DNA of 64,000 nucleotides from a bacterium (lineage in GTDB: Bacteria; SAR324; XYD2-FULL-50-16), in assembly GCA_024275165.1 (NCBI GenBank), contig JAJRZQ010000029.1, forward strand, positions 5,952-69,951, in the 5' to 3' direction. Positions 10,458 to 62,517 of the stretch are shown in pieces (within the stretch, counting starts at the first letter, position 1; the number at the start of each line of letters is the position of its first letter). The notes beneath the pieces were generated by a model. That model made no database searches. It was not told where the DNA came from and saw nothing but the letters and a program-made list of their open reading frames with translations. The position numbers were made by a program, and so were the translations under genes.

Positions 10458-12338
10458 ATGCAGTTGGAAAACGATAAATTGTTGAAGGCCATTCCTTGGG
10501 TTTTATTGGTGGTGCTGGGGCTCGGCGCGTTGGGGGTCGCCTGGTCGAACATGATGCGCGAGGAACAAACCCGCCTCGACAACGAAACCTTAATCTTAGA
10601 AAGCGCTTTTAACCACAATTTCACCGCCCTGTTGGAAGTCAGTCCTTATTTAGATTCCCTTTTTGCCGCCTCTCAAGCGGTCACTGCCGAGGAGTTTCAT
10701 ATCTTTGCTCAGCCCTTGTTGAATCGCATGCCTTTTTTAAAAAGCATCGCCTACCTCCCCAGGGTGCGGTCTAACGAAGTCGAGGCTTTCACCCGGGGGA
10801 TGCGCTCGCAAGGTTTTCTTCACGATGGGTTGAATCAACCCACCCCGGGGGATGTGTTTCCCGTAAAGTATATTGAGCCTCTGAGCGATGAATGGACCCA
10901 AACCTTAGGTTACAACTACTTCGCCCATACCGAATTTCGCCAAAAGGCGATGCAGGCGATTGAAGGCGCCACTCCGCTTTGGTTGCAAAAAGGTCTGGTT
11001 TGTTGCCCAAAGCCTGCTTACTCCATGGTGGTGCAAGCCGGTTACGCCGGCAAAGGCAATCCAGTCGATCCCCAAAAGCTTACTCCTAAGCAACGGCGGG
11101 AAACAGTGAATGCCTTATATATTTTGTCTTTTGATGAAAACCAACTGATCCAGCCAAAATATACCCCTCAAAACCTAGAATTGAAGATTGAGGTTTTTAG
11201 GCATCAGGCCAAGGCACAGGGGCACCCGTTACTTTCTGTTTCTGTGCCAACAAAGCAATGGCGGCTTCCCTGGGGCCAAATCGAGAGCGTGGTTTGGGTT
11301 GACGGGTCAGAGCAGGATTTTCGTATTTCAGCTCAGAGGTCGCTTCCCCTAGCCGAGGTTCATTTTGGCGAATTTTTGTTGGCTCTAGGGGTTGCCGCCC
11401 TCTTGGTGATCTTAGGGACTTTTTTGCTCCGCGCCCAACAGCGCTATAAAGAATTTCTTTTGGCGAGAAACAAAGAGATCGAAATTCAGGTGAGCGAGCA
11501 AACAGGGAGCTTGGCCAATCGAACCATTGCCTTGCAGGCGACCAACCAGCAATTGTTGGAAACCGAAGCGGAGCTGTTTAAATCCAAACGCATGGTCGAG
11601 ATGGTTTTAGACAGTATTCCCGTGCGGGTTTATTGGAAGGATACCAACCTAAAGTATTTAGGGGCCAATCGCCTTTTTGCTCAAGACGCCGGGGTAGCGT
11701 CTCCCAGCGACTTAATCGGCAAAAGTGATTTTGATCTTGTCTGGAAGGCCTACGCGGAGAGCTACGCTAAAAGGGATCAAGAGGTGATGGAGAGCAAAAG
11801 GCCTCGCTTGAATTACATTGAACCCCAAATTAGCGAGCAAGGAAGAGAGTCCTGGTTGGAAATGAGTCAGATTCCCTTAACTTCGGCAGAGGGAGAGGTG
11901 GTTGGAATTTTGGGGGTGTATACAGAGATTACGGAACGAATTTTGGCCCAAAGGGCCTTGCAAGAGCATACCACCAACCTAAATCAAGTGCAGTCCATGG
12001 CTCATGTGGGGAACTGGACCTGGGACATTGCAACGGGGGAGGTCCAATGGTCCGATGAGATTTTTCGCATCTTTGGTTTTGAGCCCGGGGCCTTTACCCC
12101 GAGTTACGAGCGTTTTTTGCAGGCAATTCCCGTAGCGGATCAGCATTTGGTCAAAGAGGGGATTGAGCAGGCTTTAAAGCAAAACCAAGAATACGCGGTG
12201 AATCATCGGATTATACGCCCTAATGGCGAGACGCGTCATCTTTTTGAAAAAGGAGAGGTGTTTTTTGCTTCAGAAGGGAAGCCTTTGCGGATGCGGGGCT
12301 TTATTCAAGACATTACCGAGCATAAGCTGGCAGAATAA
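10458..12338 (+). CDS. CHASE-PAS-PAS sensor, N-terminal half of a split hybrid kinase
   Basis: 626 residues. TM helix at about 13-32, an extracytoplasmic CHASE-type ligand domain at about 60-270 (FHIFAQPLLNRMPFLKSIAY), a second TM at about 305-325, a short coiled coil, then two PAS domains at about 375-490 and 500-622. The last ends FIQDITEHKLAE, the usual PAS-to-next-domain linker. It stops with TAA at 12336-12338, and the next open frame at 12363 continues in exactly the same frame with matching linker sequence. The two are most simply one gene interrupted by a single nonsense codon. Alone, this part lacks any kinase domain. Confidence 0.8.
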   Translation: MQLENDKLLKAIPWVLLVVLGLGALGVAWSNMMREEQTRLDNETLILESAFNHNFTALLEVSPYLDSLFAASQAVTAEEFHIFAQPLLNRMPFLKSIAYLPRVRSNEVEAFTRGMRSQGFLHDGLNQPTPGDVFPVKYIEPLSDEWTQTLGYNYFAHTEFRQKAMQAIEGATPLWLQKGLVCCPKPAYSMVVQAGYAGKGNPVDPQKLTPKQRRETVNALYILSFDENQLIQPKYTPQNLELKIEVFRHQAKAQGHPLLSVSVPTKQWRLPWGQIESVVWVDGSEQDFRISAQRSLPLAEVHFGEFLLALGVAALLVILGTFLLRAQQRYKEFLLARNKEIEIQVSEQTGSLANRTIALQATNQQLLETEAELFKSKRMVEMVLDSIPVRVYWKDTNLKYLGANRLFAQDAGVASPSDLIGKSDFDLVWKAYAESYAKRDQEVMESKRPRLNYIEPQISEQGRESWLEMSQIPLTSAEGEVVGILGVYTEITERILAQRALQEHTTNLNQVQSMAHVGNWTWDIATGEVQWSDEIFRIFGFEPGAFTPSYERFLQAIPVADQHLVKEGIEQALKQNQEYAVNHRIIRPNGETRHLFEKGEVFFASEGKPLRMRGFIQDITEHKLAE

Positions 12339-12362: not shown

Positions 12363-15300
12363 TTGAGCATTTTGAGTCAATTGCAGTTTAGCAAAACAGG
12401 CAACCTGAACATGATCAACATGGTCATTCAGCAGACCTTGCAGGTCACCTTTTCCAGCATCTGGCTGGAAAGTCAAACCGGGGATGCCCTGGTGCGCCAA
12501 GGCGAGTTTAACGGCTTGACCAATCAACATGAAAAAGGTGGCGAAATCCAACAGGAGCAATATCCTTCTTATTTCAGGTATTACAAAACCTCAAATCTGA
12601 TCGAGATTCCAGATGCCTTAACCCACCCCGCCTTGGTGGAGATGCGCAAAGATTATGTCCAACCCAAGGGGGTGGTTTCCATGTTGAATATTCCCTTTTT
12701 GGTTCTAGGTCAAAAGATTGGCCTGCTTTGCGTTGAGGCAACCGAAACCCGCAGGGACTGGTCGATTGAGGAGAAAAATTTCGCGCTCGCGGCGGCAAAA
12801 ACCCTTTCGTTAGATTATGAACGGTTGGAAAGGGAGCGGGTCGCTAAGGAGTTGCGAATTTCAGAGCAGCGACTGCAACAAATCTTAGACACCATTCCCG
12901 TGCGGGTTTTTTGGAAAGACAAAGAATCAAATTATTTAGGCGGAAATCGCCTTTTCGCGCAAGACGCAGGAGTGAAGGCGACGCAAGACTTAGTCGGGCT
13001 AAAAGATGAAGACCTCCCCTGGAAGTCTTCTGTTGCCGCTCACAGTAACACAGACCGTCTGATTCTTTCTGAGGGGGAGCCGCTGCTCAACTATGAAGAG
13101 GTACAAAGAAACGCCGACCATAGCAAGATATGGATCGAAATGAGCAAAATTCCCTTAAGGGATTTGGAAGGCCGGATTATCGGTGTTTTAGGGGCCTATC
13201 ACGACATCACGGCACGCAAAGAAGCAGAGCAAAAACTGACCCAAGCCAAAGAAGACGCGGATGCCGCCAGTCAGGCCAAGTCTGATTTCTTGGCGAATAT
13301 GAGCCATGAGATTCGCACCCCCATGAATGGGATTTTAGGGATGGTGCAGCTTGCCCTGCAAACCCCTTTGAGTGAAAAACAGGCCGATTACCTCGACAAG
13401 GTTCATCATTCGGCCAACAACCTGTTGCATATTCTCAATGACATTTTGGATTTTTCCAAAATTGAGGCAGGGAAGCTCGAGATTTCCGAGTGCGAGTTTT
13501 TCTTAGATGATCTTTTAGAAGACTTATCTCACTTAGGGGCAAAAGCAGCTTATGACAAGCATTTGGAATTGCTTTTCAAGGTGGACCCAAAGGCTCAACA
13601 AGCCTTATTGGGTGATTCTTTGCGCTTGGGGCAAATCCTGTCTAATTTGCTTTCAAATGCCTTGAAATTCACTGAAAAAGGGGAGGTTCTATTAGAGGTC
13701 CAACAACTTGCGGCCAAGGAAAACGAGGTTTTTTTGGAATTCAGCGTTACCGATACGGGAATCGGTTTAAGCCCAGAACAGCAGGCAAAGCTTTTTCAAT
13801 CCTTTACCCAGGCCGATACTTCCGCCACCCGCCACTTTGGGGGCACCGGCCTGGGTTTGAGTATCAGCAAGCAGCTCGCGGGCATGATGGGGGGAGAAAT
13901 CTGGGTGGTCAGCGAAGTGGGAAAAGGCAGTACCTTTACCTTTAACGCTTGGGTGAAAAAATCAACCCAGTCCTGCGATAAAGCGCGAGTCATCGAGCCC
14001 GATCAGTCGTTGCGGGTTTTGGTGGTTGACGATAACCGCAGTTCCCGTGAGCTTTTAAAACTCTACTTGACGACCATGGGTTGCCAAGCGGCCACCGCCG
14101 CTACGGGAGAAGAAGCGATAACGCTTTTGGAAGCCGCCTCGGACGCGCCTTATGAATTGGTTTTAATGGATTGGAACATGCCCGGTTTAAATGGCCTGGA
14201 AACCATAAAAAAGATACGCCAGCATACCCACCTGCCTCAGCAGCCTATGGTGGTGATGGTGAGTGCCTATGGCCGCGAAATTTTGGTGGAGCAAACCCGT
14301 GAATTGAAGTTGGAGTTTTTTCTCACCAAACCCGTTACCTCCTCCAGCTTGTTTGATACCCTAATGCAGGTCTTAGGGAAGCGAGACAAACGGCTCACGC
14401 CCCAAGTAAAGGGCAGCGGCTTTCAAGATGCGCTACGACCCTTGGCGGGGGCGCGGATTCTTATTGCCGAAGACAATAAAATCAACCAACAGGTGATTGA
14501 AGAGCTCTTAAGCAGTGCCGGATTAAGGGTCACCTTAGCCGACAACGGGCTGGAGGTAGTGCGGTTCTTGCAAAAAGAAACCTTCGACGCTCTTTTGTTG
14601 GATTTGCATATGCCCTTAATGGACGGGTTTGAAGCGACAAAGCGGATTCGCGAAGAGCTTCATCTTTCAGGCCTCCCCATTATTGCCCTCACCGCCAGCG
14701 CGATGGTGGGAGAGCGGGAACGCTGTTTAGCGGCGGGGATGAACGAACATACCGCCAAGCCCATCGACCCTTCTGATTTGGCGGAAAAACTACTTTTATG
14801 GGTGAAACGGGATGCCCTTCCCATTGTCGCGGCGCCCCAAAATGAAAAAGCTTTACAACGAGAGCCCTTGGCCTTGCCTCTCTTGCAAGGTTTTGAGCAA
14901 TCCGCCAGCTTGCTGCGGCTCAACGGCAACCGTCCACTTTACGCTCAACTCCTACTCGGTTTTTTAGATTACCGTAAGGCCGCAACCCAATTGGCAGAGC
15001 TGATCAACAAAAAAGTCTGGTCAGAGGCACAGATTTTGGCCCATACTCTAAAAGGCTTAGCCGGTAATTTAGGGGCTGTTGTATTGAGTGAGGAAGCAGG
15101 GGCGTTAGAGGTGGCTTGTAAAGAGCAAAAAAACGCCGATCCACAACCCCTGAGTATCGCCTTCAATGCCGTAATTGACGAGATTCAAGAAAACGAGGTC
15201 GCTTTGCGCCTTTTAAGCGAAAGCCGGGGGCAGCCTGCCACCGCCATTTCGAACCTGAGCCCTCAAGCATTGTTGGATCAGTTCAAAGAGGCGCTGAAAA

Positions 15301-15464
15301 GTCGTAACCCCACGCGTTGCAATGAGTGCTTGAGTCAAATTAAAAGGGTGCGTTGGGACCCGGCTCAGAGTGTGCTGATCAAAGATTTAGCGGCCTTGGT
15401 CAAAAAATATCAATACAAACAAGCGCTCACTTTACTGGAACAATCAAAGCAAAGCGAATCATGA
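12363..15464 (+). CDS. GAF-PAS-kinase-REC-REC-Hpt hybrid histidine kinase (C-terminal part)
   Basis: 1033 residues with no membrane segment. Domains in order: GAF-like (about 10-160), PAS (about 175-295), HisKA with [14 protein letters not shown], HATPase with NLLSNALKF and [18 protein letters not shown], receiver 1 ([13 protein letters not shown]), receiver 2 ([13 protein letters not shown]) and a C-terminal Hpt with [12 protein letters not shown]. This is a full phosphorelay on one chain. The frame is continuous with the CHASE-PAS gene except for one TAA at 12336. If it is a separate gene, the start is TTG 12363 or ATG 12411. Its PAS domain is a near copy of the first PAS of the upstream half. 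Its stop overlaps the HD-GYP gene by 4 nt. Confidence 0.88.
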
Positions 15465-18842: not shown

Positions 18843-20573
18843 ATGCTACGATTAATCAAAGAATTCAAACCAGAACAGTTGATTTGGTATGGCCAGTTAT
18901 TGGTGAAAATGGTGATTGTCGATCAAAACTTTTCTCCCTCCGAGTTGCAATTTGTGAAAGAGGTGTTGGCGCAAATTCCCGATGAAAAAGAACGCAAGAG
19001 CCTTGTCGGCTATTTGGAAAAACAACAAGAACCGCCCCTGAGGCAACCTAAAAGCTTAAACAAAGAGGTCTTGGCCCAGGTTTTTATCCAATTGATTCAT
19101 GTTGCCTTAGCCGATAACGAGCTCCATGCGGCAGAATTGGCTTTATTAAAAAGTCTCAGTCGTCTCTTTGATTTTCATCCCAATTACTTAAAGGACTGTC
19201 TTGCCTGGGCGCAAGATGGAATTTACATCCGCCGGTTACAGCAAAAATTGGCCAAGCGCACCCTTTCTTTGCGCAATGAATTGGTGCCGGTCAAAAAGCT
19301 CAACACGGAGCAAAAAAAATGGTATATCGACGCCGTGGTCGCCGCCTTAATCCATGAAGGACTCAAGGAGGAAAAAGAGCTAAACCTGTTAAAGCGGATG
19401 TTTGCCAGCACAGAGAGCCGAGAGGAACAAATCCTGCTGCGCAATCATATCTTGCTGCAACATCGCCCTCCGATTCGTCGGCCTCCCCCCATGCCCGAAG
19501 GGTTGACTCTCTTGATTTTAATGGAGGTCGCTTTAATCGGAGCCCGCAATGGGGATATGAGTTATCAGTCCAGTCAGCATTTGCGGCTTTTAGCCGATGT
19601 AAGTCGCTTGTCGGCCAAATCCTACAACGAATTGATGGAGTGGATCAACCAAAGCGTGCTTTGGAAAAAACGGGAGCGAGACCTCTTAAATCAAGTGCGG
19701 CTCAACTCGAGCGAAGAGGAAGAAGAGGCCAAAAAGCAGGGGCGACTGATCACCCACCCAGACAACAATTCGATTCAAGTCAGAAAGGTTCAGTGTTTTG
19801 TCTGTGGCTCCGGTAAGGATTTACCCCTGTTTCAGTTAAGGCATCTTAGTCAGAAAACCAGCCAAAATATCTTTGGAACCCCTATTTTTTTAGGGGCCAA
19901 TGAAGGTTTTGACCCCATCGACTTCAACCGGATCAAGGTGGTCGTCTGTCCCGCCTGTCTGTTTGCCAGTCCCAAAAAAGAGCATTTTATCCGTCAGAAA
20001 AAGGACCAAACCCCGGAAGAACTCAGCGATCCTCGCTTTAAGGGGGAATGGATCCGTCAGGTCTTAGAGCGTGAAGAGCAAATCGAGCCTTATAAAAAGC
20101 AGATATCCACGATCCAGCGCAGCCTTCCCGCTGCCATTGCCTGTTATGATTTGGCGATTGACGCGGTGCGGCATTATCATGCCCATTTGCCCAAAGAGTC
20201 GAACCAAGGTCAATTGATCAACCTGTATCTCACCTTAGCGGAATTGAAGATGCAAGCGGGCTTGCGAGAAGAAGCCGAAAACGACCTCAGGCTTGCCATG
20301 GACTTGGCGAAACAGATTTATCTCAAAGGGAGAGCGCCTCAACTCGTTTTACGCTGCGCCCGCTTATTGCTCATTTCCGCGCTGTATTTTGAGGATGAGA
20401 AAAATATCGGGGAATACATGAACTTCTTTCACCGCTATAAAACCGATAAGGCCGAGGGGTTTAAGCTGCAAGATCGGCAAGAATTCATGAAGCTTTACCA
20501 GGAGGTCAGCGGAATTTTCTCCCAGCGAGAACGCTATAAAAAATCAGCCCTCAAGGGATTTAAGCTGCTATGA
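18843..20573 (+). CDS. TerB-array protein with C-terminal zinc (DUF2225-like) and helical domains
   Basis: 576 residues, soluble. Four successive TerB-like segments are visible at about 10-60, 75-140, 152-205 and 215-280; each has a hydrophobic helix followed by D/N-x-x-x-x-x-x-E-x-x-x (VIVDQNFSPSELQFVKEVL; ALADNELHAAELALLKSL). A four-cysteine zinc module follows, with C318-x2-C321 and C369-x2-C372 and the core QNIFGTPIFLG...FDPIDFNRIKVVVCPAC, resembling DUF2225. The C-terminal 170 residues are TPR-like helices. It is a full-length paralogue of the protein at 40096-41808. The ATG has no Shine-Dalgarno. Function unknown. Confidence 0.8.
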   Translation: MLRLIKEFKPEQLIWYGQLLVKMVIVDQNFSPSELQFVKEVLAQIPDEKERKSLVGYLEKQQEPPLRQPKSLNKEVLAQVFIQLIHVALADNELHAAELALLKSLSRLFDFHPNYLKDCLAWAQDGIYIRRLQQKLAKRTLSLRNELVPVKKLNTEQKKWYIDAVVAALIHEGLKEEKELNLLKRMFASTESREEQILLRNHILLQHRPPIRRPPPMPEGLTLLILMEVALIGARNGDMSYQSSQHLRLLADVSRLSAKSYNELMEWINQSVLWKKRERDLLNQVRLNSSEEEEEAKKQGRLITHPDNNSIQVRKVQCFVCGSGKDLPLFQLRHLSQKTSQNIFGTPIFLGANEGFDPIDFNRIKVVVCPACLFASPKKEHFIRQKKDQTPEELSDPRFKGEWIRQVLEREEQIEPYKKQISTIQRSLPAAIACYDLAIDAVRHYHAHLPKESNQGQLINLYLTLAELKMQAGLREEAENDLRLAMDLAKQIYLKGRAPQLVLRCARLLLISALYFEDEKNIGEYMNFFHRYKTDKAEGFKLQDRQEFMKLYQEVSGIFSQRERYKKSALKGFKLL

Positions 20574-34560: not shown

Positions 34561-34857
34561 CTATAAAAGGATCACCTTGTCGCATTGTTGGTGCAAAATA
34601 GCATTGTTCAACTGGGTGCCTTTTTTGATTTTTTTGGGCAAGTTGTCTATGGGAACCTTCAGTTTTTTTGCGCTATATTCGCAAAAGGAGATGGCGACTT
34701 TTTCTGCAAAGGCTAAAACCTCGGGGTCTTCTAAAAGCAAGGTGCCGAAATCATTGATAAACCAACGAACCTCCCAACCCCTGTTTTTTGCCCCTTGCGT
34801 CAAGCCCAAAAGAGCTTCTTTATTGATTTCGTTTAAAACAAAAAATCCGAGTTTCAT
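34561..34857 (-). CDS. DsrE/TusD-like small protein (Cys-containing)
   Basis: 98 residues. The fold pattern of the DsrE/F family is visible: beta-strand KLGFFVLNE, alpha, GWEVRWFINDFGTLLL, and then VAISFCEYSAKKL, where the Cys-x-x-Ser pattern matches the reactive-cysteine region of the DsrE superfamily. Third gene of a three-gene set; its ATG overlaps the middle gene's stop by 4 nt (ATGA). The family includes TusBCD, DsrEFH and membrane-free sulfur carriers. Which sulfur acceptor it serves cannot be told. Confidence 0.7.
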   Translation of the reverse strand: MKLGFFVLNEINKEALLGLTQGAKNRGWEVRWFINDFGTLLLEDPEVLAFAEKVAISFCEYSAKKLKVPIDNLPKKIKKGTQLNNAILHQQCDKVILL

Positions 34858-35040: not shown

Positions 35041-35307
35041 TCAGTAAAAGAGTAGAACTTGATCAAAACCCAACAAACTTTGACTTAGTTTGTTTAGGGA
35101 TAAAGCGTTTCCCTCCCCAGGATAAAAATGTACCGGAATTTCCATCTCCTTGACCTGCAAGAATTGTTGCTGGGCCATTCCGTCGGTACTGATCTTTTGG
35201 CTTACTACAAAAATCTCGACTTGATCATCAAGCAAGAGCAAACCGAGCGCAACGCGAAACGCCTCTCCTTGACGGTCTTTGGTAATGACTGCATAGCGTT
35301 TTGGCAA
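35041..35307 (-). CDS. DsrE-like small protein, first of three
   Basis: 88 residues starting at TTG 35307, supported by an AAGGAG ribosome-binding site 6 nt upstream. Fold pattern: strand KRYAVITKD, helix FRVALGLLLLDDQVEIFVVSQKIS, and C-terminal FDQVLLFY, as in DsrE/TusD proteins. It has no cysteine, so any sulfur transfer would depend on the third protein of the set. It heads an operon with a plausible promoter at 35321-35351 on the minus strand. Confidence 0.7.
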   Translation of the reverse strand: MPKRYAVITKDRQGEAFRVALGLLLLDDQVEIFVVSQKISTDGMAQQQFLQVKEMEIPVHFYPGEGNALSLNKLSQSLLGFDQVLLFY

Positions 35308-35351: not shown

Positions 35352-35562
35352 CAGAAATAAATCAAAGTCACAACCTAATTTAACCTAACTTGACAGAAAA
35401 TTAAGCTTTAACCAAGCCATTTCCCCCTTTCTTTCAATCGGCTTAAGGAGTGGAAAGGGGCTTGCGATTTTTTTTTAAAACTCACAAAATATAACAAAGT
35501 TTTAGGTTCCTCTTTCGGTCCTCTATGTTTTTCCATTGTTCAACGCTTCCCCCCCCTTGCAA

Positions 35563-36192
35563 ATGCCGCAAATTGAGGAAATTCGCTATCAACTCGTTAA
35601 CGCCGACTTAGGGGCAGAAGGTCAAAATTTTTTAAAAAGCAAGGTTTGTGAATATTTTGACGAACTGAAAGCCAAAAATCCCCTTATAGATTATAAAGCT
35701 CAATACATCCTTAACCCGGACCAGCGGCCTTTAGGCTCGGTATTGCTGGCCAATCCTCGTTTTGATCTCATTTTTTCCGGTTTCAATGTTACCCGAAAAG
35801 ATGTGGAGAAAACGAACCAAGCGAGCGCTCAAGCCTTAGTCACTGAAGAAATGGGGCCGGAGCTGCAAATCGACCCGACCTTGAGGTTTCCCGCCTATCA
35901 AGAACTGTTGCGCTTGCAGCAAAGGGGGAGCTTTAATTTCAAGTATCTCTATTTTGTGGGGGATCTCAATCAACGCATTCGTGAATTTCTCCAATACGGC
36001 TTTGTCCTTTCCGCTCGTTTTTTTCAAGACGCCCAGCGTAGCCGGAGGGGGGAAGTCGTTCCTTTAAAGGATATATCCCAATTGCCGAAACTCGGCGCCA
36101 CGCCAGAAGAAGGAAAACTTGATTTATCTAGGATCAGTGAATTGACCCTGGGAGAAATTCGGTTTCATGGCGTGGTCAATCTGTTGGAGTAG
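35563..36192 (+). CDS. Unknown 209-residue protein, first gene of the 35.5-41.8 kb operon
   Basis: Not recognised. ATG 35563 and TTG 35536 are in the same frame; neither has a ribosome-binding site. Soluble mixed alpha/beta protein, no signal peptide. The C-terminal part has two repeated-looking strands (LTLGEIRFHGVVNLLE). Residue pattern DLGAEGQNFLKSKVCEYFDEL suggests an amphipathic N-terminal helix. It lies 15 bp before the 1080-residue gene and should share its transcript. A role with that partner is inferred only from position. Confidence 0.65.
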   Translation: MPQIEEIRYQLVNADLGAEGQNFLKSKVCEYFDELKAKNPLIDYKAQYILNPDQRPLGSVLLANPRFDLIFSGFNVTRKDVEKTNQASAQALVTEEMGPELQIDPTLRFPAYQELLRLQQRGSFNFKYLYFVGDLNQRIREFLQYGFVLSARFFQDAQRSRRGEVVPLKDISQLPKLGATPEEGKLDLSRISELTLGEIRFHGVVNLLE

Positions 36193-36207
36193 CAAGGGCA
36201 CTTTCAT

Positions 36208-39200
36208 TTGCCCGACCCGAGTTTTTTAGATTGCATGAAAAATCTGGGTCTTTTGCATCAAGCCCGTTTAGAGAAGATTGATCAGCTCAAAGAAAGGGAA
36301 AACAAACGACTCATTCACAAAAAAACTGTCTTGGTGGTTTTGGAACCGGCGCTGTGCAAGGTGATTGTTGGCCGTTTACGCTTAGACGAGATGGAGCAGG
36401 TTATCGAGTTCGCCGGGGTGGACGCGGTAATCGAATTTTTGCAAACCGGTCATGCCCGGGGGATAGCTGAGGCCATTGAATCCAAGGGTGCCGAAGAAGT
36501 CGCTAAGCTGTTGAGCGGCGGCGAGCGGGATCAATTTCTTTTAGGCCTTTTAGGCAAGCGCCTTTTTTCTGAGATTTTAACCCAAGAGGCGCAGCAGGGG
36601 GGGAAACGACTGCTTGATTTGGAAGAAGAAAAAAAGAGAGAGCTGGTTTATTTTTTGGATGACGCGGCAACAGAGCATTTTTTGCTTCTTCTGCAAAAAA
36701 GTCATCCCCAGAGCTTTTTAGGCAGAGTCCGCCCCGAGCTGCGAGAAAAGTTGATCTTGGAGTTTTATAAAAATCCAGCTACCGCCTTAGCGGGCTGGCA
36801 GCGCATGGATGAATCCACCCGGGATAACTTTTTATGGCAAAAGACCCCTCAAGTGTTGGCTAGTCTGTATTTGGCAGACAGCAAGCTTTTTGAAAAATCC
36901 TTTCCGGATTCCCCCCTAACCCGGCAAGGGGGGTGGGATTCCACCCAATTTAAAGACCTAAGCCCTGGAGAAGTTCCCGTTCGCTTGAGCCTCTTTGCCG
37001 AGACGCTGCAAGGCTTGCAAATGGACCAAGCTTATTTGGATCGTGTTTTTACCCACAACCAGTGGACGCGAATCATTTCTCGTTTTATCACCCTGCGTTC
37101 GGAGGAGTTTTTTAATTTCTTTGAGCCGGAGGTAAGAAAAATTCTCTGGTATGCTGCGGGGGAGGCGAACTTACAGACTATTTATAAGCGACTCTCGGCC
37201 AAGGAGAAGCTGGATATTTTAGAGGGGGCGCAAGATCAGGTTTTGCGGTTGCTTTGTTCTGAAATAGATTGGCTCGCCCAAGAAGCGAAGGAGGGCCGTT
37301 TACTCGACCTCGCGGGGCACCTCTTGCTGCTGCTGAAGCAAGGGAATCAGCTTGAGTCGAAAGCGGGCTTGCGCAAACGCGTCGCTATGGACCCCAATCT
37401 GAGGCAATATCGCTTGGATAGTTTAGCGGAGTTTTTCGCTAGTCCCAGGGGGAAAAAGCTTTTGGGGAAGGTTTCTTTTATTTTGGCGGAGACGCAAGTC
37501 CATTTTGAGGCCGTGGTCTGCTTAAACGAAGCGGTCGCCCCCTTAAGGGCTCAAGCAGAACTCCAAGAGGCGCGGTTTATCGAGGTCGATTCGCTGCTCG
37601 ATTTTTCCCTTTTGGACTTGCTGAAAAAGGGGTCTTTAGATTTAAAAAAGTATGAACAAATGCAAGGAGAGATCGAAAAAAAGATTGAAAAGGCCAAGGC
37701 AAAGTTGCTGGATTCCGGCAAAAGCGACCCGGTTGGGGTTTACGCGAGTGAAACCCTGTTGCTGATGGTGCAACTCACCCACAAGGCGATGCAGAATCAA
37801 CTGGACGCGGGGATGCTCCCACAACTCGATGAGCGCCAACAAGCCAAAACCCGTATTTTGGATCAGGTGAAAGAGAGGATCGCGCGCTTAGAGCAAACCC
37901 TAAAAACTGCGGAAGAAAGGTTGCCGGGGCTGCGCAGCAGAAATCGGGTCTTGGCGCAGAGTTTTAAGGAGCTCAAGCAAGAAACCCAGAATCGGCTTTC
38001 TCACCTGCAAGGGCGGCTGAAACTTTATGGAGAGTACCAACAACGCTTAAAGGCCTTGGAGGTGGAAAAGCGAAAGCTCGCGGCAGCGCAAAAAAAATTG
38101 TTCCGGCAATTTTTTCAGCTCATTGCTCCTCCGATGCTGAACCGGCTCACGCGCCTACCGGGGACTTTGAGCAAGCTGGTTTCAGGGTTGAAAAAGACCT
38201 TCAACCCAGAAGAAGCCCAGCGTCGACGAAAGATATTTCGCTTTAGTGAAGAGCAATTCCAACAGCTTACCAAGCGAGATATCGTTTTTTTAACGGAAGA
38301 CCCTATTTTAAAGGGTTTTATCTCAACCTGCTTGAAAATTGATGGGCTCGACAATCGCTTCTTGCGGGTTTTAGCCCCTCAAGATTTAAGCTTTGGGGTG
38401 GAGATTCTTTTTGTGGGGGCGGACTTAATCCATCAAGACTTCAGCGCCATGGTCGAGCCTAAATTCCAGGTTCCCTTGGTGGACCCGAACTTTTATGAGG
38501 CCTTAAAACTCAACGAGGGCAAAAAGCAGGGGATGCGCAAAAGCTTACAAAAGTATAAAAACGCCTTGGTGGAACTGAAACGCTACCTTGAAACAGAAGG
38601 GGGGAATTTAAAAAAAATGGCGGTGATTGTAAAAAGTAGAGAGAGGGAGGTTCAGCGCAATCGAGAAAAAGAGCAGGAACTTAAACTTATTTTATCTCAA
38701 GAGGTTAAAAGCCTAAGGGCTTTAAAGGCGGAAGAAGAGGGCTTGGAAGTAAAATTAGCCTTGGTGGATCAACAATTCGAGCAGGCTAAAACCTCTATCG
38801 AAGCCGCCTTAAGCAAGGAGGGGGAAGAAAAGGTGACGATATTAAAAGAACAGGCCCAACCCTTTTCAGGCTCTTTAAGTCAAGACCTGCTTCAACTCAA
38901 CAAACAGCTTGCCGGGCTGATGATGATTCAAACCATTAAAGAATCCAGCGGGATCGTCAGTCAAAAAACCCAAGAGGGGCTCCGGCTCAAACTCGAGGCC
39001 AACAGCCGCTTGCCGGGGGGCAAGGCGGCGCTCAAAGAACTCACTCTGGCCAGTGATGGAGGGGTTTTGAGCGAAGAAATTCTCAGAACCTTAGAACCAG
39101 CCTGCAAGGATTATTTTGGGCAAGCGGTCCACTTAAAGCAAACCCCCTTTGCCAAGGTAGAAAATGAGATGGCAGAACAAGAATCCAGGCCGCAAATGGT

Positions 39201-39450
39201 GATTTTCATCGGAGATGACAGCGCAAACCATCTTTCCTCCTTTAAAGAGCGGTTTTTTCACCTCAAAGCTTGCGGCGCCCAGAGCCATTTTGCTCTCATC
39301 ACCCCCTATCCGACGGATCCGCTTTCCGCTGATTTAGAAAGAAACCTCACGGTTTTAAAAGACCTCTGTTTTGTCGCCAACAGCCAGTTGGAAGATTTCA
39401 CCAATCCCTCTGTGATCCATCCCTTTTTACAAAGCTTGGTTCCAGGATGA
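36208..39450 (+). CDS. Unknown 1080-residue coiled-coil protein
   Basis: Not recognised. TTG 36208 is the first start, with AAGGGC upstream; ATG 36235 is the alternative. The N-terminal 450 residues are helical with FliG/MgtE-N-like alternation (LDEMEQVIEFAGVDAVIEFLQ; LLGLLGKRLFSEIL). Residues about 500-660 and 770-890 are long coiled coils rich in Glu, Lys and Gln. Two short alpha/beta segments (DIVFLTEDPILKGFISTCL; QMVIFIGDDSANHLSS) look like degenerate receiver-like or Rossmann-like units. No membrane segment. It sits in a tight operon: 15 bp after the 209-residue gene and 4-nt overlap with an O-methyltransferase gene. Confidence 0.75.
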   Translation: MPDPSFLDCMKNLGLLHQARLEKIDQLKERENKRLIHKKTVLVVLEPALCKVIVGRLRLDEMEQVIEFAGVDAVIEFLQTGHARGIAEAIESKGAEEVAKLLSGGERDQFLLGLLGKRLFSEILTQEAQQGGKRLLDLEEEKKRELVYFLDDAATEHFLLLLQKSHPQSFLGRVRPELREKLILEFYKNPATALAGWQRMDESTRDNFLWQKTPQVLASLYLADSKLFEKSFPDSPLTRQGGWDSTQFKDLSPGEVPVRLSLFAETLQGLQMDQAYLDRVFTHNQWTRIISRFITLRSEEFFNFFEPEVRKILWYAAGEANLQTIYKRLSAKEKLDILEGAQDQVLRLLCSEIDWLAQEAKEGRLLDLAGHLLLLLKQGNQLESKAGLRKRVAMDPNLRQYRLDSLAEFFASPRGKKLLGKVSFILAETQVHFEAVVCLNEAVAPLRAQAELQEARFIEVDSLLDFSLLDLLKKGSLDLKKYEQMQGEIEKKIEKAKAKLLDSGKSDPVGVYASETLLLMVQLTHKAMQNQLDAGMLPQLDERQQAKTRILDQVKERIARLEQTLKTAEERLPGLRSRNRVLAQSFKELKQETQNRLSHLQGRLKLYGEYQQRLKALEVEKRKLAAAQKKLFRQFFQLIAPPMLNRLTRLPGTLSKLVSGLKKTFNPEEAQRRRKIFRFSEEQFQQLTKRDIVFLTEDPILKGFISTCLKIDGLDNRFLRVLAPQDLSFGVEILFVGADLIHQDFSAMVEPKFQVPLVDPNFYEALKLNEGKKQGMRKSLQKYKNALVELKRYLETEGGNLKKMAVIVKSREREVQRNREKEQELKLILSQEVKSLRALKAEEEGLEVKLALVDQQFEQAKTSIEAALSKEGEEKVTILKEQAQPFSGSLSQDLLQLNKQLAGLMMIQTIKESSGIVSQKTQEGLRLKLEANSRLPGGKAALKELTLASDGGVLSEEILRTLEPACKDYFGQAVHLKQTPFAKVENEMAEQESRPQMVIFIGDDSANHLSSFKERFFHLKACGAQSHFALITPYPTDPLSADLERNLTVLKDLCFVANSQLEDFTNPSVIHPFLQSLVPG

Positions 39451-40082
39451 AAGAGCGACTGAGCCCTACCGAGTTTTTGGATTGTTTTTCCTCTCGGTTG
39501 CCTATATTTCAAGAAATTCAAACCTATGGGCGAGCCAATCAGGTGCCCATCTTGAGTGATGCCGCGGGTCGGGCTTTGGCGATGCTGGTGGGGCTCTTTC
39601 GCCCTGAGCGGATTTTGGAAATCGGTTGCGGAATCAGCTATTCCACCCACTGGATGCTCACCGCCAGTGAATCCAGCCAGATCATTGCCTTAGACACCAA
39701 CCTGGTGCGTTTGGGTTTAAGCGAGCGGTTTCTCACGCGTTCTAGATTGTTGCCCCGAGTGGAATTGGTACATCAAGCGGGTTTGGAATATTTAACCCAA
39801 TCCAAGGCGCTTTATGACTTGATCTTCATTGACAGTACCAAAAAGGGGTATGCGGAGTTACTTGATGAGTGCTATAAGCACCTATCCCCTGAAGGATTGA
39901 TCATTGCCGATAATATCTTTTTTGGCGGCTTGATGTTTTACCCTGATTTATCTCTGGTTCCCCGAAATAAAGCAGGGGTGCGACAGATGCAAAACTTTTG
40001 CGCCCGGGCCAGCTCTCACCCCCGCCTCGACTGTTATTTTTTGGAGTTGGGGGACGGCTTGATGGTAGCCCGAAAAAAATAG
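39447..40082 (+). CDS. SAM-dependent O-methyltransferase (COMT/caffeoyl-CoA type)
   Basis: 211 residues, the usual size for class-I Methyltransf_3 enzymes. The N-terminal PILSDAAGRALAMLVGLF is the substrate-side helix. SAM-binding ILEIGCGISYSTHWML follows, then FIDSTKKGYAELLDECY (the acidic loop near FIDA in family members) and GLIIADNIFFGG. Start ATG overlaps the 1080-residue gene by 4 nt. The substrate is unknown. Placement suggests it could modify the neighbouring proteins or a cell-surface metabolite, but no evidence chooses between them. Confidence 0.85.
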   Translation: MKERLSPTEFLDCFSSRLPIFQEIQTYGRANQVPILSDAAGRALAMLVGLFRPERILEIGCGISYSTHWMLTASESSQIIALDTNLVRLGLSERFLTRSRLLPRVELVHQAGLEYLTQSKALYDLIFIDSTKKGYAELLDECYKHLSPEGLIIADNIFFGGLMFYPDLSLVPRNKAGVRQMQNFCARASSHPRLDCYFLELGDGLMVARKK

Positions 40083-40095
40083 ACTCCAACGATTT

Positions 40096-41808
40096 ATGAC
40101 CGTACCTGTTTCCACTCTCACTCGCATTGAAAAACTCTGGTATGCCGACCTTGTTCTAGCCGCTATCTTGGCGGATCAAGAGATCAATGTATCGGAGGTT
40201 GATTTTTTAAAGCAGGTGATTTCCATCTTGGGTCCGGCGGATCGGCCGGGCTTGGTGAAAAAGATCGAAGCCAAGATCATGCCTCAACTTCAGCCGCCTC
40301 CGCAGGGCATTGCCGATGATCTCTTAGGGGCAATTTTCATGGAGTTGATTTTAATCGTCATCAGCGATAAGGATTTTGCCGAGGGGGAAAAAGCCTTTTT
40401 AGAGCAGGTAGGCGCTCTTTTTGGCTTTACCGATTCTTACCAATTTCTTTTGATGAAGTGGTTGAAGGCGGGGCTCGCTTGGAAAAAGGGGCAAACGCGC
40501 CTGCTCCCGGGCGGGAGCAGCTTGGAGCGGGTTCCCCTAAAGCAATTCAACAGTGCCCAAAAGAAGTGGTACGCTACGGTTTTGGTTTCCACGATTCTTT
40601 TGGATGGTCAGGTTGACGCTCTAGAAATGAGTTTTTTGAAAATGGCCATTTCCTTTTTAGAGGAAAAAAGGGATCAGGCAGAACTGATGGCCTATGTAAA
40701 AAACCGCATGTGCCCGAAAATCGAGGTTCCCCCCGGGTTGAGCTTGGAGGTTTTGACCCTGATTTTCATTGAGGTCTTACTGCTGATCTCTGCGGATGAA
40801 TCCATTAGCTTTACCGAGCAAAACCACTTACAGCAACTTGCCAAGCAATGTGATTTTGACGCGGCTCATCTGCGCCAGTTGATTGAATGGTGCAAGCAGG
40901 GGGTGCAGTGGAAAAACGAGAAAAACAGTTTAATCGCGAAAGTCAAACGCAACCGCCACGACGCGGCGGCCAGCGGTCCCCAAACCACTCAGGGGAACAA
41001 CGCCTTGATCTCTCGTCAATTTTTCTGCCCCCTCTGCCAAGGCCCGGTAACCTATTATCAGTTGAAACCGAAAAGCCAAAAACTGAGCCGCAATATTTTT
41101 GGAATGACCACCTATAAGCAGGCAATGCCCGGCTTTGACCCGGTTGATTATAATCACCTGGGGCTGCTCCTTTGCCCTAGCTGTTATTATGCTTCTTTAG
41201 ATAAAGACCGTTTTTTGCGCCAAAGCGCGGACAGCCCTCCTGCGGTTTTTGCCAATGGAAGGTTCGCTCAGGTATGGAGCGCCGCCAAAGGGAAGCATAA
41301 AGAAAAATATGCCCAGCAGCTTGAAGGGTTTCAGGGGATCAACCGCAGTCTCGGCAGTGTCGTAGCGGGCTACCATTTAGCCATGGAGGGGGAAAAACTC
41401 TTTTATGAAATCACCAACAACGAAGCGCATCATTGGGCATTGCTCTCCCTCAGGCTGTTGCTGGCAGAGATTTTAACCTCCGCGGGGAAAGACAAACAAG
41501 GGGTCGATTTAATCGCCGGGGTCGTCGAGGGGGCCAAAAGCATTTTTGAAAGCCGAGCCAAGCACACTCTAATCTACAAAGCGGGGCGGATCCTTTTTTT
41601 TATTGGGCTTTTTTTCAATAAAAGGGATGAATATTCCACCTATTTGAACTTTTTCGCGAATCTTTGCCAGAATAAAAAAAATGAAGAGGTCTCCCCAGAG
41701 GAATTGAAATTCCTGCATAAGATTTACGCTGAAATGAGAAAAGCTTTTGAAAACCGGAGCGATTACCGCAGAGAAGCCCTCAAGGGGTTGCACTTGAGGA
41801 CATTTTGA
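40096..41808 (+). CDS. TerB-array protein with zinc domain, paralogue of 18843-20573
   Basis: 570 residues. The same architecture as the protein at 18843: three or four TerB-like segments (LAAILADQEINVSEVDFLKQV; LIVISDKDFAEGEKAFLEQ; VSTILLDGQVDALEMSFLKM; LLISADESISFTEQNHLQQ). A zinc module follows with C311-x2-C314 and C360-x2-C363 and a shared core (SRNIFGMTTYK...GFDPVDYNH). The TPR-like C terminus ends YRREALKGLHLR, matching YKKSALKGFKLL of its paralogue. Last gene of the operon, 13 bp after the methyltransferase. Function unknown; the shared layout suggests a structural or scaffold role. Confidence 0.8.
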   Translation: MTVPVSTLTRIEKLWYADLVLAAILADQEINVSEVDFLKQVISILGPADRPGLVKKIEAKIMPQLQPPPQGIADDLLGAIFMELILIVISDKDFAEGEKAFLEQVGALFGFTDSYQFLLMKWLKAGLAWKKGQTRLLPGGSSLERVPLKQFNSAQKKWYATVLVSTILLDGQVDALEMSFLKMAISFLEEKRDQAELMAYVKNRMCPKIEVPPGLSLEVLTLIFIEVLLLISADESISFTEQNHLQQLAKQCDFDAAHLRQLIEWCKQGVQWKNEKNSLIAKVKRNRHDAAASGPQTTQGNNALISRQFFCPLCQGPVTYYQLKPKSQKLSRNIFGMTTYKQAMPGFDPVDYNHLGLLLCPSCYYASLDKDRFLRQSADSPPAVFANGRFAQVWSAAKGKHKEKYAQQLEGFQGINRSLGSVVAGYHLAMEGEKLFYEITNNEAHHWALLSLRLLLAEILTSAGKDKQGVDLIAGVVEGAKSIFESRAKHTLIYKAGRILFFIGLFFNKRDEYSTYLNFFANLCQNKKNEEVSPEELKFLHKIYAEMRKAFENRSDYRREALKGLHLRTF

Positions 41809-60438: not shown

Positions 60439-61086
60439 CTACATGCCGTCAGGCTTGACCAGAATATCAATTCTGCGGTTGAGCCGCCTCAAGCTGGGAA
60501 CCTCGTTGCTCACCTTGGGCCTTGTATCTCCATAACCCGCGATTTCCATGCGGTTGCTTTTGACTCCGAAGCCCTCTAAAAGCCGGACCACGCTCCCTGC
60601 TCGAGCAGCGGAAAGCTCCCAATTGGATTTAAAGGGCCCGCCGCGCATCGGTACATTGTCCGTATGGCCTTCCACTATGATATTATTGGAGACGGCGTGC
60701 AGAATGCGACTGAATTTTTCGATGATCTCCCCCCCTTTTTTTGTGGGTTCGGCTCGACCGGGCTCAAACATCACCGCGTCGGAAAAACTGACCGTAATCC
60801 CTCGATCATCGACAGTGATATCGGTGACCTCGGAAATATCACTTTTTTTTAAGCTCATTTCTAAGCTTTCCATAAAGGTCGGCATTCCCGAAAACATAAA
60901 GGGCGAGGCCGGGGGGCCCCCCTTAAAACTCGCCGAAACCGCGGTAAAGAGGTTTTCTTCAGACTTCGACATGGCAAAGAGCAACACAAAAAAGCACATC
61001 AAGAGGGTAACCATATCCCCATAGGTGTAAATCCAATCGACCCGTTCTTCGACTTTCGGGCATTTGCATTCTTCTTGAACGGCCAT
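60439..61086 (-). CDS. motB: MotB/PomB-like flagellar stator subunit
   Basis: 215 residues. Short N-terminal tail with ECKCP, one TM helix at about 22-44 carrying the ion-binding Asp (TYGDMVTLLMCFFVLLFAMS), linker, and a C-terminal OmpA/peptidoglycan-binding domain (VEGHTDNVPM, ELSAARAGSVVRLL, NRRIDILVKP). The ECKCP segment is like PomB, so sodium coupling is possible. Translation is coupled to motA: the ATG immediately follows the motA stop and has an AGGAGG ribosome-binding site inside motA. Confidence 0.92.
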   Translation of the reverse strand: MAVQEECKCPKVEERVDWIYTYGDMVTLLMCFFVLLFAMSKSEENLFTAVSASFKGGPPASPFMFSGMPTFMESLEMSLKKSDISEVTDITVDDRGITVSFSDAVMFEPGRAEPTKKGGEIIEKFSRILHAVSNNIIVEGHTDNVPMRGGPFKSNWELSAARAGSVVRLLEGFGVKSNRMEIAGYGDTRPKVSNEVPSLRRLNRRIDILVKPDGM

Positions 61087-61896
61087 TTAGCCTCCTGATT
61101 TGTCGGCACTGAATTTCAGTTCCTCGTATTTTGCTTTCAAGACGGGGTTGAGGTAGTTCATCAAATCTTGTTCGATAAATTCTGCCCGCTCGTTCTTTTC
61201 AATAAATAATACCCCATCGCGGATCATTTCGTCCAAAACCTTTTCATTTTCATTGGCAAAGCTGAGGGAGTTGGCCCAGGGGATAAAGATCCCGTTGGAC
61301 AACAAAGAGCCGTAAAGGGTCGTAATCAAGGCGACCGCCATTTTAGGCCCTACGGTTGAAATATCATCCAAGGACTGGAGCATCAAGATTAAACCAATCA
61401 AGGTGCCCAACATCCCAAACCCCGGCGCGAGGGAAGACATAAGCTTGATCAACAGCATATCGGCTTCTTTTTTTTGCGCCGCGTATTTCATCTCGCTGGA
61501 CATGATTTCGGTAATTAATTCCCGATCAACCCGGTCTACCACCAATCTCAGTCCATTGCGTAAAAATTCGTTTTCAATGCTCGGTAAACTGTCTTCAATG
61601 GCCAATACATTTTTCCTGGCTACCTTTGCAACATCGACAACGATGACTAAGGTTTCGATAAGGGGGACATTTTTCGCTCTATAGACCTTGCCGATTGATT
61701 TTCCGATTCCGGCAATCATCTCCATGGGGTAGGCGGCGACGGTGGCGACTAAGGTGCCGATTACGACGATGATAACGCTGGGAGCGTTCCACATGTATTG
61801 GAGGTATTCAGGGTGAAGGGATCCTTCTTCATACATTACCCCGAAGCAGAAGAGGAGGAAAATTCCCGCTGAACCGACGACTGCAGCTAAATCCAT
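61087..61896 (-). CDS. motA: MotA/PomA-like flagellar stator subunit
   Basis: 269 residues. Four membrane spans (about 4-22, 33-55, 150-170, 185-205) with a cytosolic loop between the second and third. Signature residues: SLAPGFGMLGTLIGLILMLQ and GPKMAVALITTLYGSLLSNG of the proton/sodium-channel region. It forms the stator with motB. A flagellum is therefore expected, though no flagellar structural gene is in the window. Confidence 0.93.
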   Translation of the reverse strand: MDLAAVVGSAGIFLLFCFGVMYEEGSLHPEYLQYMWNAPSVIIVVIGTLVATVAAYPMEMIAGIGKSIGKVYRAKNVPLIETLVIVVDVAKVARKNVLAIEDSLPSIENEFLRNGLRLVVDRVDRELITEIMSSEMKYAAQKKEADMLLIKLMSSLAPGFGMLGTLIGLILMLQSLDDISTVGPKMAVALITTLYGSLLSNGIFIPWANSLSFANENEKVLDEMIRDGVLFIEKNERAEFIEQDLMNYLNPVLKAKYEELKFSADKSGG

Positions 61897-62089
61897 GATA
61901 ATTTCTCGAATATGCGGTTGTGCCGCCCTATGACGGTGGCCTTAGCAAAGCAATAATTCGGCCAAAAATTCAATTTTATCAAATTTCCTTTTTTTTTTCT
62001 CTTTGGGCTCAGGAGGTAAAAAAGGGCAGAGCCCTTGCATTTCCATAAAATATAGAATTTTGACCCCTCGACTCAAAGGAACGCAAGCG

Positions 62090-62517
62090 ATGAAAGCTTT
62101 TTGGATAATCCTTTTGGCAGGCCTGTTCTTTGGCCTTAGTGGTTGCACCATGTTCGCCAGTGAAGACCTAGCTGCCCGCAAACCGACGCGAAGATATTGC
62201 GCTGAGCCGCGTATGGCTTCGAGTATTAAATTTCATCGGCGGGCAAAAAGCTATTTGATGAGTTATTATAAAACCCGCAAAGAGAGCGAACTCTTTTTGC
62301 CTGGTATGCCTCGGAAGATAGCGATTACATGGCAAAAACGATTCGTCGCTGCTGGGATAAACGAAACAAACATTGGCACGCGGTGCAAAATATTCAACGG
62401 AAAAACAAAATATTACAAAAATTAATTACCCAAAACATGCGCCTTGACAGCCACACCCAAGTGAGTGAGCTTTTTTTGGGTGAGTACCGTAAAATCTTTG
62501 TACGCGATATTCAGTAA
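62090..62517 (+). pseudogene. Frameshifted small lipoprotein gene
   Basis: ATG 62090 has AAAGGA upstream, and the frame gives a signal peptide with lipobox LSGC. At the T-run 62294-62298 the reading frame breaks: the first frame ends as a short tail to 62425, while the next frame gives a sensible continuation (AWYASEDSDYMAKTIRRCW...VSELFLGEYRKIFVRDIQ) to a stop at 62517. One missing T restores one gene of about 142 residues. It could be a sequencing error in a homopolymer or a real mutation. The stop is 3 bp before mnmE. Confidence 0.6.

Follow-up and report, generated by a model that had tools for sequence, protein, structure and literature searches.

A SAR324 gene for a large receiver-like protein, interrupted by an in-frame TAG, and its possible link to flagellar motor genes

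Four open reading frames and an in-frame TAG

The window analysed here is a 64,000-nucleotide stretch of DNA from a genome of SAR324/Lambdaproteobacteria, and the locus of interest lies at positions 35536-41808. The features identified there are as follows.

35536-36192, + strand: ORF of 218 aa, called from TTG 35536
36208-39450, + strand: ORF of 1080 aa, starting at TTG 36208
39447-40082, + strand: methyltransferase ORF of 211 aa (Methyltransf_3)
40096-41808, + strand: TerB plus DUF2225 ORF of 570 aa
35563-39450, + strand: BIG, almost certainly a single interrupted gene with a product of about 1,295 aa (frame continuity, uninterrupted homologues, single profile match)
36190-36192, + strand: in-frame TAG splitting BIG

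A preliminary description of this DNA had counted four tightly coupled genes. The spacings it gave were confirmed from the ORF coordinates (in order, a 15-bp gap, a 4-nt overlap and a 13-bp gap), and four ORFs are indeed present on the forward strand, but the first two turned out to be parts of one gene containing a TAG. One TAG separates the 218-codon ORF from the 1080-codon ORF, the two being in frame, and translation across it gives ...FHGVVNLLE*QGHFHLPDPSF..., where the relatives run unbroken as ...FDGVINMEEDGGHFYIKDFT.... Six complete homologues are each encoded by one ORF of 1,293-1,308 aa that spans both window ORFs, and one more, incomplete because its contig ends, also continues through the TAG site. 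Because the two window ORFs have a common frame and full-length homologues span both, we regard 35563-39450 as a single gene with near certainty and refer to it as BIG. A profile of the BIG family gave one match in this genome, covering positions 6-1296 with "1 TAG" inside, and the same search found no internal stop in the other full-length homologues, the TAA counted for BIG of genome G004 being the terminal stop of that gene. The codons at the TAG column in the homologues are GAC, GAG, GTG, GAG, GAG and GTG, so a single substitution, GAG to TAG, would suffice to create the stop. Homology also places the start of the gene at ATG 35563, downstream of the called TTG 35536. The gene model is corrected accordingly; otherwise databases would receive two unknown proteins.

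Architecture and distribution of BIG

BIG matched no Pfam, NCBIfam or PADLOC family. Two AlphaFold2 models, one for the N-part and one for the C-part, were built from a seven-sequence alignment and reached mean pLDDT values of 79 and 71. In the predicted layout, alpha/beta domains form the two ends; between them come, in order, a long region made of helices alone and two long coiled coils that flank a small alpha/beta segment.

35581-36273, + strand: N-terminal receiver-like alpha/beta domain, straddling the TAG (model residues 7-237)
36346-37443, + strand: all-helical region, possibly repeat-like (model residues 262-627)
37834-38139, + strand: first long coiled coil (helix 172-273 of the C-part model)
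38281-38475, + strand: small internal alpha/beta segment (strands and helices 321-385 of the C-part model)
38485-38814, + strand: second long coiled coil (helix 389-498 of the C-part model)
39028-39447, + strand: C-terminal receiver-like domain, degenerate (VIA and alignment columns)

Foldseek against the PDB returned no match at E <= 0.001 for the BIG models, the helical middle being barely covered. With VIA, the N-terminal domain matched RitR with Z 9.1 (126 aligned residues, 3.2 Å) and the FrzS receiver with Z 8.1, where a Z of about 9 is moderate and only moderately above background. The C-terminal domain matched CpaE-type atypical receivers with Z 12.3 (117 residues, 2.6 Å) and 12.1. In the N-terminal domain the phospho-acceptor Asp after strand 3 is absent from all seven sequences; in the C-terminal domain an Asp occurs there in five of seven (N or Q in the others), acidic residues after strand 1 are retained, and an invariant Asn occupies the expected Lys position at the end of strand 5, all these site positions being assigned by secondary structure and not by residue-level superposition. 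Response_reg of Pfam had no match in the BIG members scanned. Since the fold matches coincide with missing phosphorylation-site residues, "degenerate receivers" is a fair description of both ends of BIG at the level of fold; the coiled coils and small receiver-like alpha/beta parts proposed beforehand are thus borne out by the models and the VIA matches. CpaE/TadZ, which gave the C-terminal domain its highest Z values, likewise have a degenerate receiver in a polar or localisation protein. CpaE/TadZ carry a MinD-like ATPase domain, and Pfam detected none in BIG.

A FliG or MgtE_N identity for the helical region was also considered but gained no clear support. The best MgtE_N score was 23.7 bits (cut-off 25.9), with sub-threshold matches in four of six homologues, and hhalign gave 28% probability to MgtE and 2% to FliG; this profile comparison is unsupportive, although its control is weak, as MgtE against FliG itself reached only 4%. 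The sequence matches of the BIG profile in the PDB were set aside as coiled-coil and helical look-alikes only.

The profile search found BIG in 11 of 52 SAR324 genomes. By family, it occurs in three of ten genomes of f1 and seven of ten of f4 (one as a 57-residue fragment), f2 has a distant 964-aa version, and f3 has none. The distant version comes from the same order, in a genome of 1.5 Mb (G010:C39, L075:6-2900). One further hit, in G001, was not counted, as it was confined to positions 980-1087, which are coiled coil, and the ORF of the 1011-codon frame concerned appears CheB-type by eye. An alignment search of the contigs of 84,980 species yielded seven BIG loci, all from Lambdaproteobacteria, SAR324 or Deltaproteobacteria by label or contig identity; the same contig search with a single BIG protein as query gave no match. 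The two closest homologues come from the Ca. Lambdaproteobacteria MAGs RIFOXYD2_FULL_56_26 and RIFOXYD2_FULL_50_16. Judged by these searches, in which it was found only in SAR324, BIG appears to represent a SAR324-restricted, hitherto unnamed family of about 1,300 aa. Most of the SAR324 phylum is uncultured, and nearly all of its members have flagellar genes (PMC9031357); FlhA is present in 51 of the 52 genomes used here. A link between BIG and the presence of flagella is therefore uninformative, and BIG is no core motor part, because it is missing from most flagellated SAR324 genomes.

Meaning of the stop

The three stop codons are used evenly in the window, where TAG ends 14 of 44 genes, and a CUA anticodon is absent from all 42 tRNA genes found in this genome, which is 98% complete. 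Recoding is unlikely on both grounds, and we rejected it: TAG is an ordinary stop here, with no suppressor tRNA found. Readthrough of the TAG, by suppression or in a context-dependent manner, would yield full-length BIG plus a short form, and the frame past the stop is indeed open for 1085 codons and conserved. The same stop usage and tRNA complement speak against it, however, and no homologue has a stop at the TAG column, so we consider readthrough highly improbable. Functional fission is an unlikely but less improbable reading, in which the two ORFs are translated separately, with re-initiation at TTG 36208, and the products reassemble, giving four proteins in this species. An SD-like AAGGG lies about 9 nt before this TTG, and its duplex energy of -3.7 kcal/mol falls in the range seen at other window starts; a gap of 15 bp is what coupled genes typically show; and both parts are well conserved with no further stops. 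However, no other BIG homologue is split, and the break falls within a predicted domain and not between domains. In the model the TAG is at residue 210, in a hairpin of strands 208-210 and 213-215 that precedes the last helix of the N-terminal domain (220-247), and a functional split is poorly placed there. A further point against fission is the frameshift in another conserved gene of the window, which encodes a small lipoprotein (62063-62514, + strand); this favours mutation or error. The shift, from frame 2 to frame 1, was located by tblastn with the relatives' proteins in a T-run at about 62293-62299, and the gene adjoins motA in relatives of f1.

We therefore interpret the stop in BIG as a nonsense mutation or an assembly error, a functional split being less likely. 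The two disruptions within 64 kb, the TAG in BIG and the frameshift in the lipoprotein gene, suggest assembly errors or decay. Translation ending at the TAG would leave the N-terminal domain without its final strand and helix. The BIG product of this genome is therefore probably a truncated one; alternatively, the assembly is wrong at this codon and the protein is intact. Identity to the BIG of locus L017 is 44% for the N-part and 32% for the C-part, compared with 67 and 62% between L017 and L018; the degree of conservation of either half is about what other homologue pairs lead one to expect, so any inactivation of BIG would be recent. A literature search on stop codons in MAGs found nothing relevant.

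Partner genes, neighbourhood and proposed role

The gene after BIG had been described as an O-methyltransferase, and its match to PF01596 (Methyltransf_3, E 1.3e-17) supports this. Its best solved relative is YrrM (5zw3, E 1.7e-19, residues 21-211), with which it shares the metal-site motifs FID..K and DN. YrrM/TrmR converts ho5U34 to mo5U34 in tRNA (PMC6599085), so a tRNA substrate is the default assumption, and the sequence favours, by a modest degree, a predicted TrmR-type tRNA wobble-uridine enzyme. TrmR/YrrM differs in context, since its operon in B. subtilis contains trhP1/trhP2 (PMC6599085), whereas the genes here are motAB and TerB. The proposal that this enzyme modifies the scaffold found no evidence, its best match being a tRNA enzyme, and most likely it only shares the operon. 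The 570-aa protein that follows contains two TerB-like repeats and a C-terminal DUF2225 (PF05099, PF09986), its Pfam matches exceeding the gathering scores (30.1 bits for the TerB domain against 24.4). In G002 and G004 the TerB protein is 290 aa long and the DUF2225 part is absent. The paralogue reported for it is real, lying at 18843-20573 with 29% identity. Neighbours typical of ter operons (TerC/TerD etc.) were absent among the genes examined. With PADLOC, only the methyltransferase matched, and only to stretch 265-394 of mad2; we rejected a defence system, as this support comes from the generic methyltransferase part alone.

All ten f1 genomes have the methyltransferase and TerB genes side by side, and in nine of them this pair lies downstream of motA-motB, directly or with BIG between. 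In G001, G003 and G005-G009, motA-motB is directly upstream with at most one small gene between. The order in G004 is motA-motB-BIG-methyltransferase-TerB, and in G002 it is motA-motB-hybrid histidine kinase-BIG-methyltransferase-TerB. In close relatives the pair thus stands behind the flagellar stator operon motA-motB, whereas motAB of the window is distant, about 18.6 kb from the pair and on the opposite strand, followed by ftsY.

61087-61896, - strand: motA (PF01618)
60439-61086, - strand: motB (MotB_plug and OmpA domains)

At the f4 loci that were read, BIG is not beside motAB; in two of these genomes, G028 and G034, a gene for a CheY-like stand-alone receiver directly precedes BIG. The distance from flhA to a single-domain TerB gene is 4.0-5.1 kb in 11 genomes of f3. 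These neighbourhoods point to motility by position, not by function, and as f1 is one family, its motAB linkage does not amount to many independent observations. We found no literature on TerB together with MotB.

Our best overall explanation, which we favour slightly, is that BIG is a scaffold whose gene is associated, by its position, with those of the flagellar motor. That BIG is a pseudo-receiver scaffold we consider probable, while its link to the flagellar motor or chemotaxis stays tentative, at a little under even chances. The nearest parallel is FrzS of Myxococcus xanthus, whose receiver cannot be phosphorylated and binds a partner, while its coiled coil localises the protein (PMC11580455). 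BIG too has an N-terminal pseudo-receiver followed by a large coiled coil, FrzS acts in a motility setting, and FrzS structures are among the VIA matches of the BIG N-terminal domain. In contrast, FrzS contains a single pseudo-receiver, at its N-terminus, and its target is the type IV pilus, whereas BIG is about 1,300 aa long, carries a receiver-like domain at either end and a long helical stretch in the middle, and has a flagellar neighbourhood; the likeness is at the level of structure only. By this analogy BIG would be a cytoplasmic scaffold making contacts through receiver-like domains that are poorly or not phosphorylatable, its coiled coils might set an oligomeric or polar arrangement in the manner of FrzS, and it may tune the output of the flagellar motor or of chemotaxis. 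A more specific version, which we think improbable, makes BIG an undescribed lineage-specific motor or stator regulator, a double pseudo-receiver scaffold gained by part of SAR324 that joins chemotaxis-type receivers, MotAB and TerB/DUF2225.

A competing account, less probable than the scaffold explanation yet a serious one, holds that the methyltransferase and TerB/DUF2225 genes are housekeeping genes cotranscribed with motAB and that BIG is an unrelated insertion. BIG stands between motB and the pair only in G004 and G002, is separable everywhere else and lies elsewhere in f4, and the closeness of the methyltransferase to the tRNA enzyme YrrM (PMC6599085) fits this account as well. Coincidence explains less readily why the pair follows motAB so consistently in f1, why TerB also occurs near flhA in f3 and why BIG adjoins a CheY-like gene in two f4 genomes. 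The preliminary description had instead seen a dedicated new system of four parts, a scaffold, a partner, a modifying enzyme and a metal-type protein. Its tight spacing and the order BIG-methyltransferase-TerB common to G002 and G004 agree with such a system, but two of the parts belong to a single gene, and the remaining modules come apart either way, BIG occurring without the pair in f4 and the pair without BIG in seven of ten f1 genomes. The existence of homologues without these neighbours largely refutes the four-part system, to which we give very little credence. The BIG family and the adjoining TerB/DUF2225 protein gain here their first testable context, the flagellar motor genes.

Several minor observations were also made. 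In G040 (f4), a single-domain TerB at L024:5404-5964 lies about 3 kb from BIG on the other strand. A protein of 115-133 aa with a hydrophobic N-terminal stretch, probably membrane-anchored, is encoded between motB and the methyltransferase gene, the place of BIG in G004, at L068:1876-2229, L069:2003-2404 and L071:11348-11695. Weak MgtE_N/FliG_M matches were seen in f3 in frames that encode about 550 aa; these frames occur, for example, in several contigs (G017:C23, G020:C239, G021:C21, G026:C240, G038:C4, G049:C11) and adjoin a MotA/ExbB-like gene in several f3 genomes. Just upstream of BIG in the window, two small ORFs on the reverse strand (34561-34857 and 35041-35307) are DsrE/TusD-like by eye, with no Pfam match. 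Elsewhere in the window, a CHASE-PAS-PAS protein without an output domain (10458-12338, + strand) is encoded in the same frame as the next ORF, a GAF-PAS-kinase-REC-REC-Hpt protein (12363-15464, + strand) that follows shortly after it, with one TAA in between; together they are possibly another interrupted hybrid kinase.
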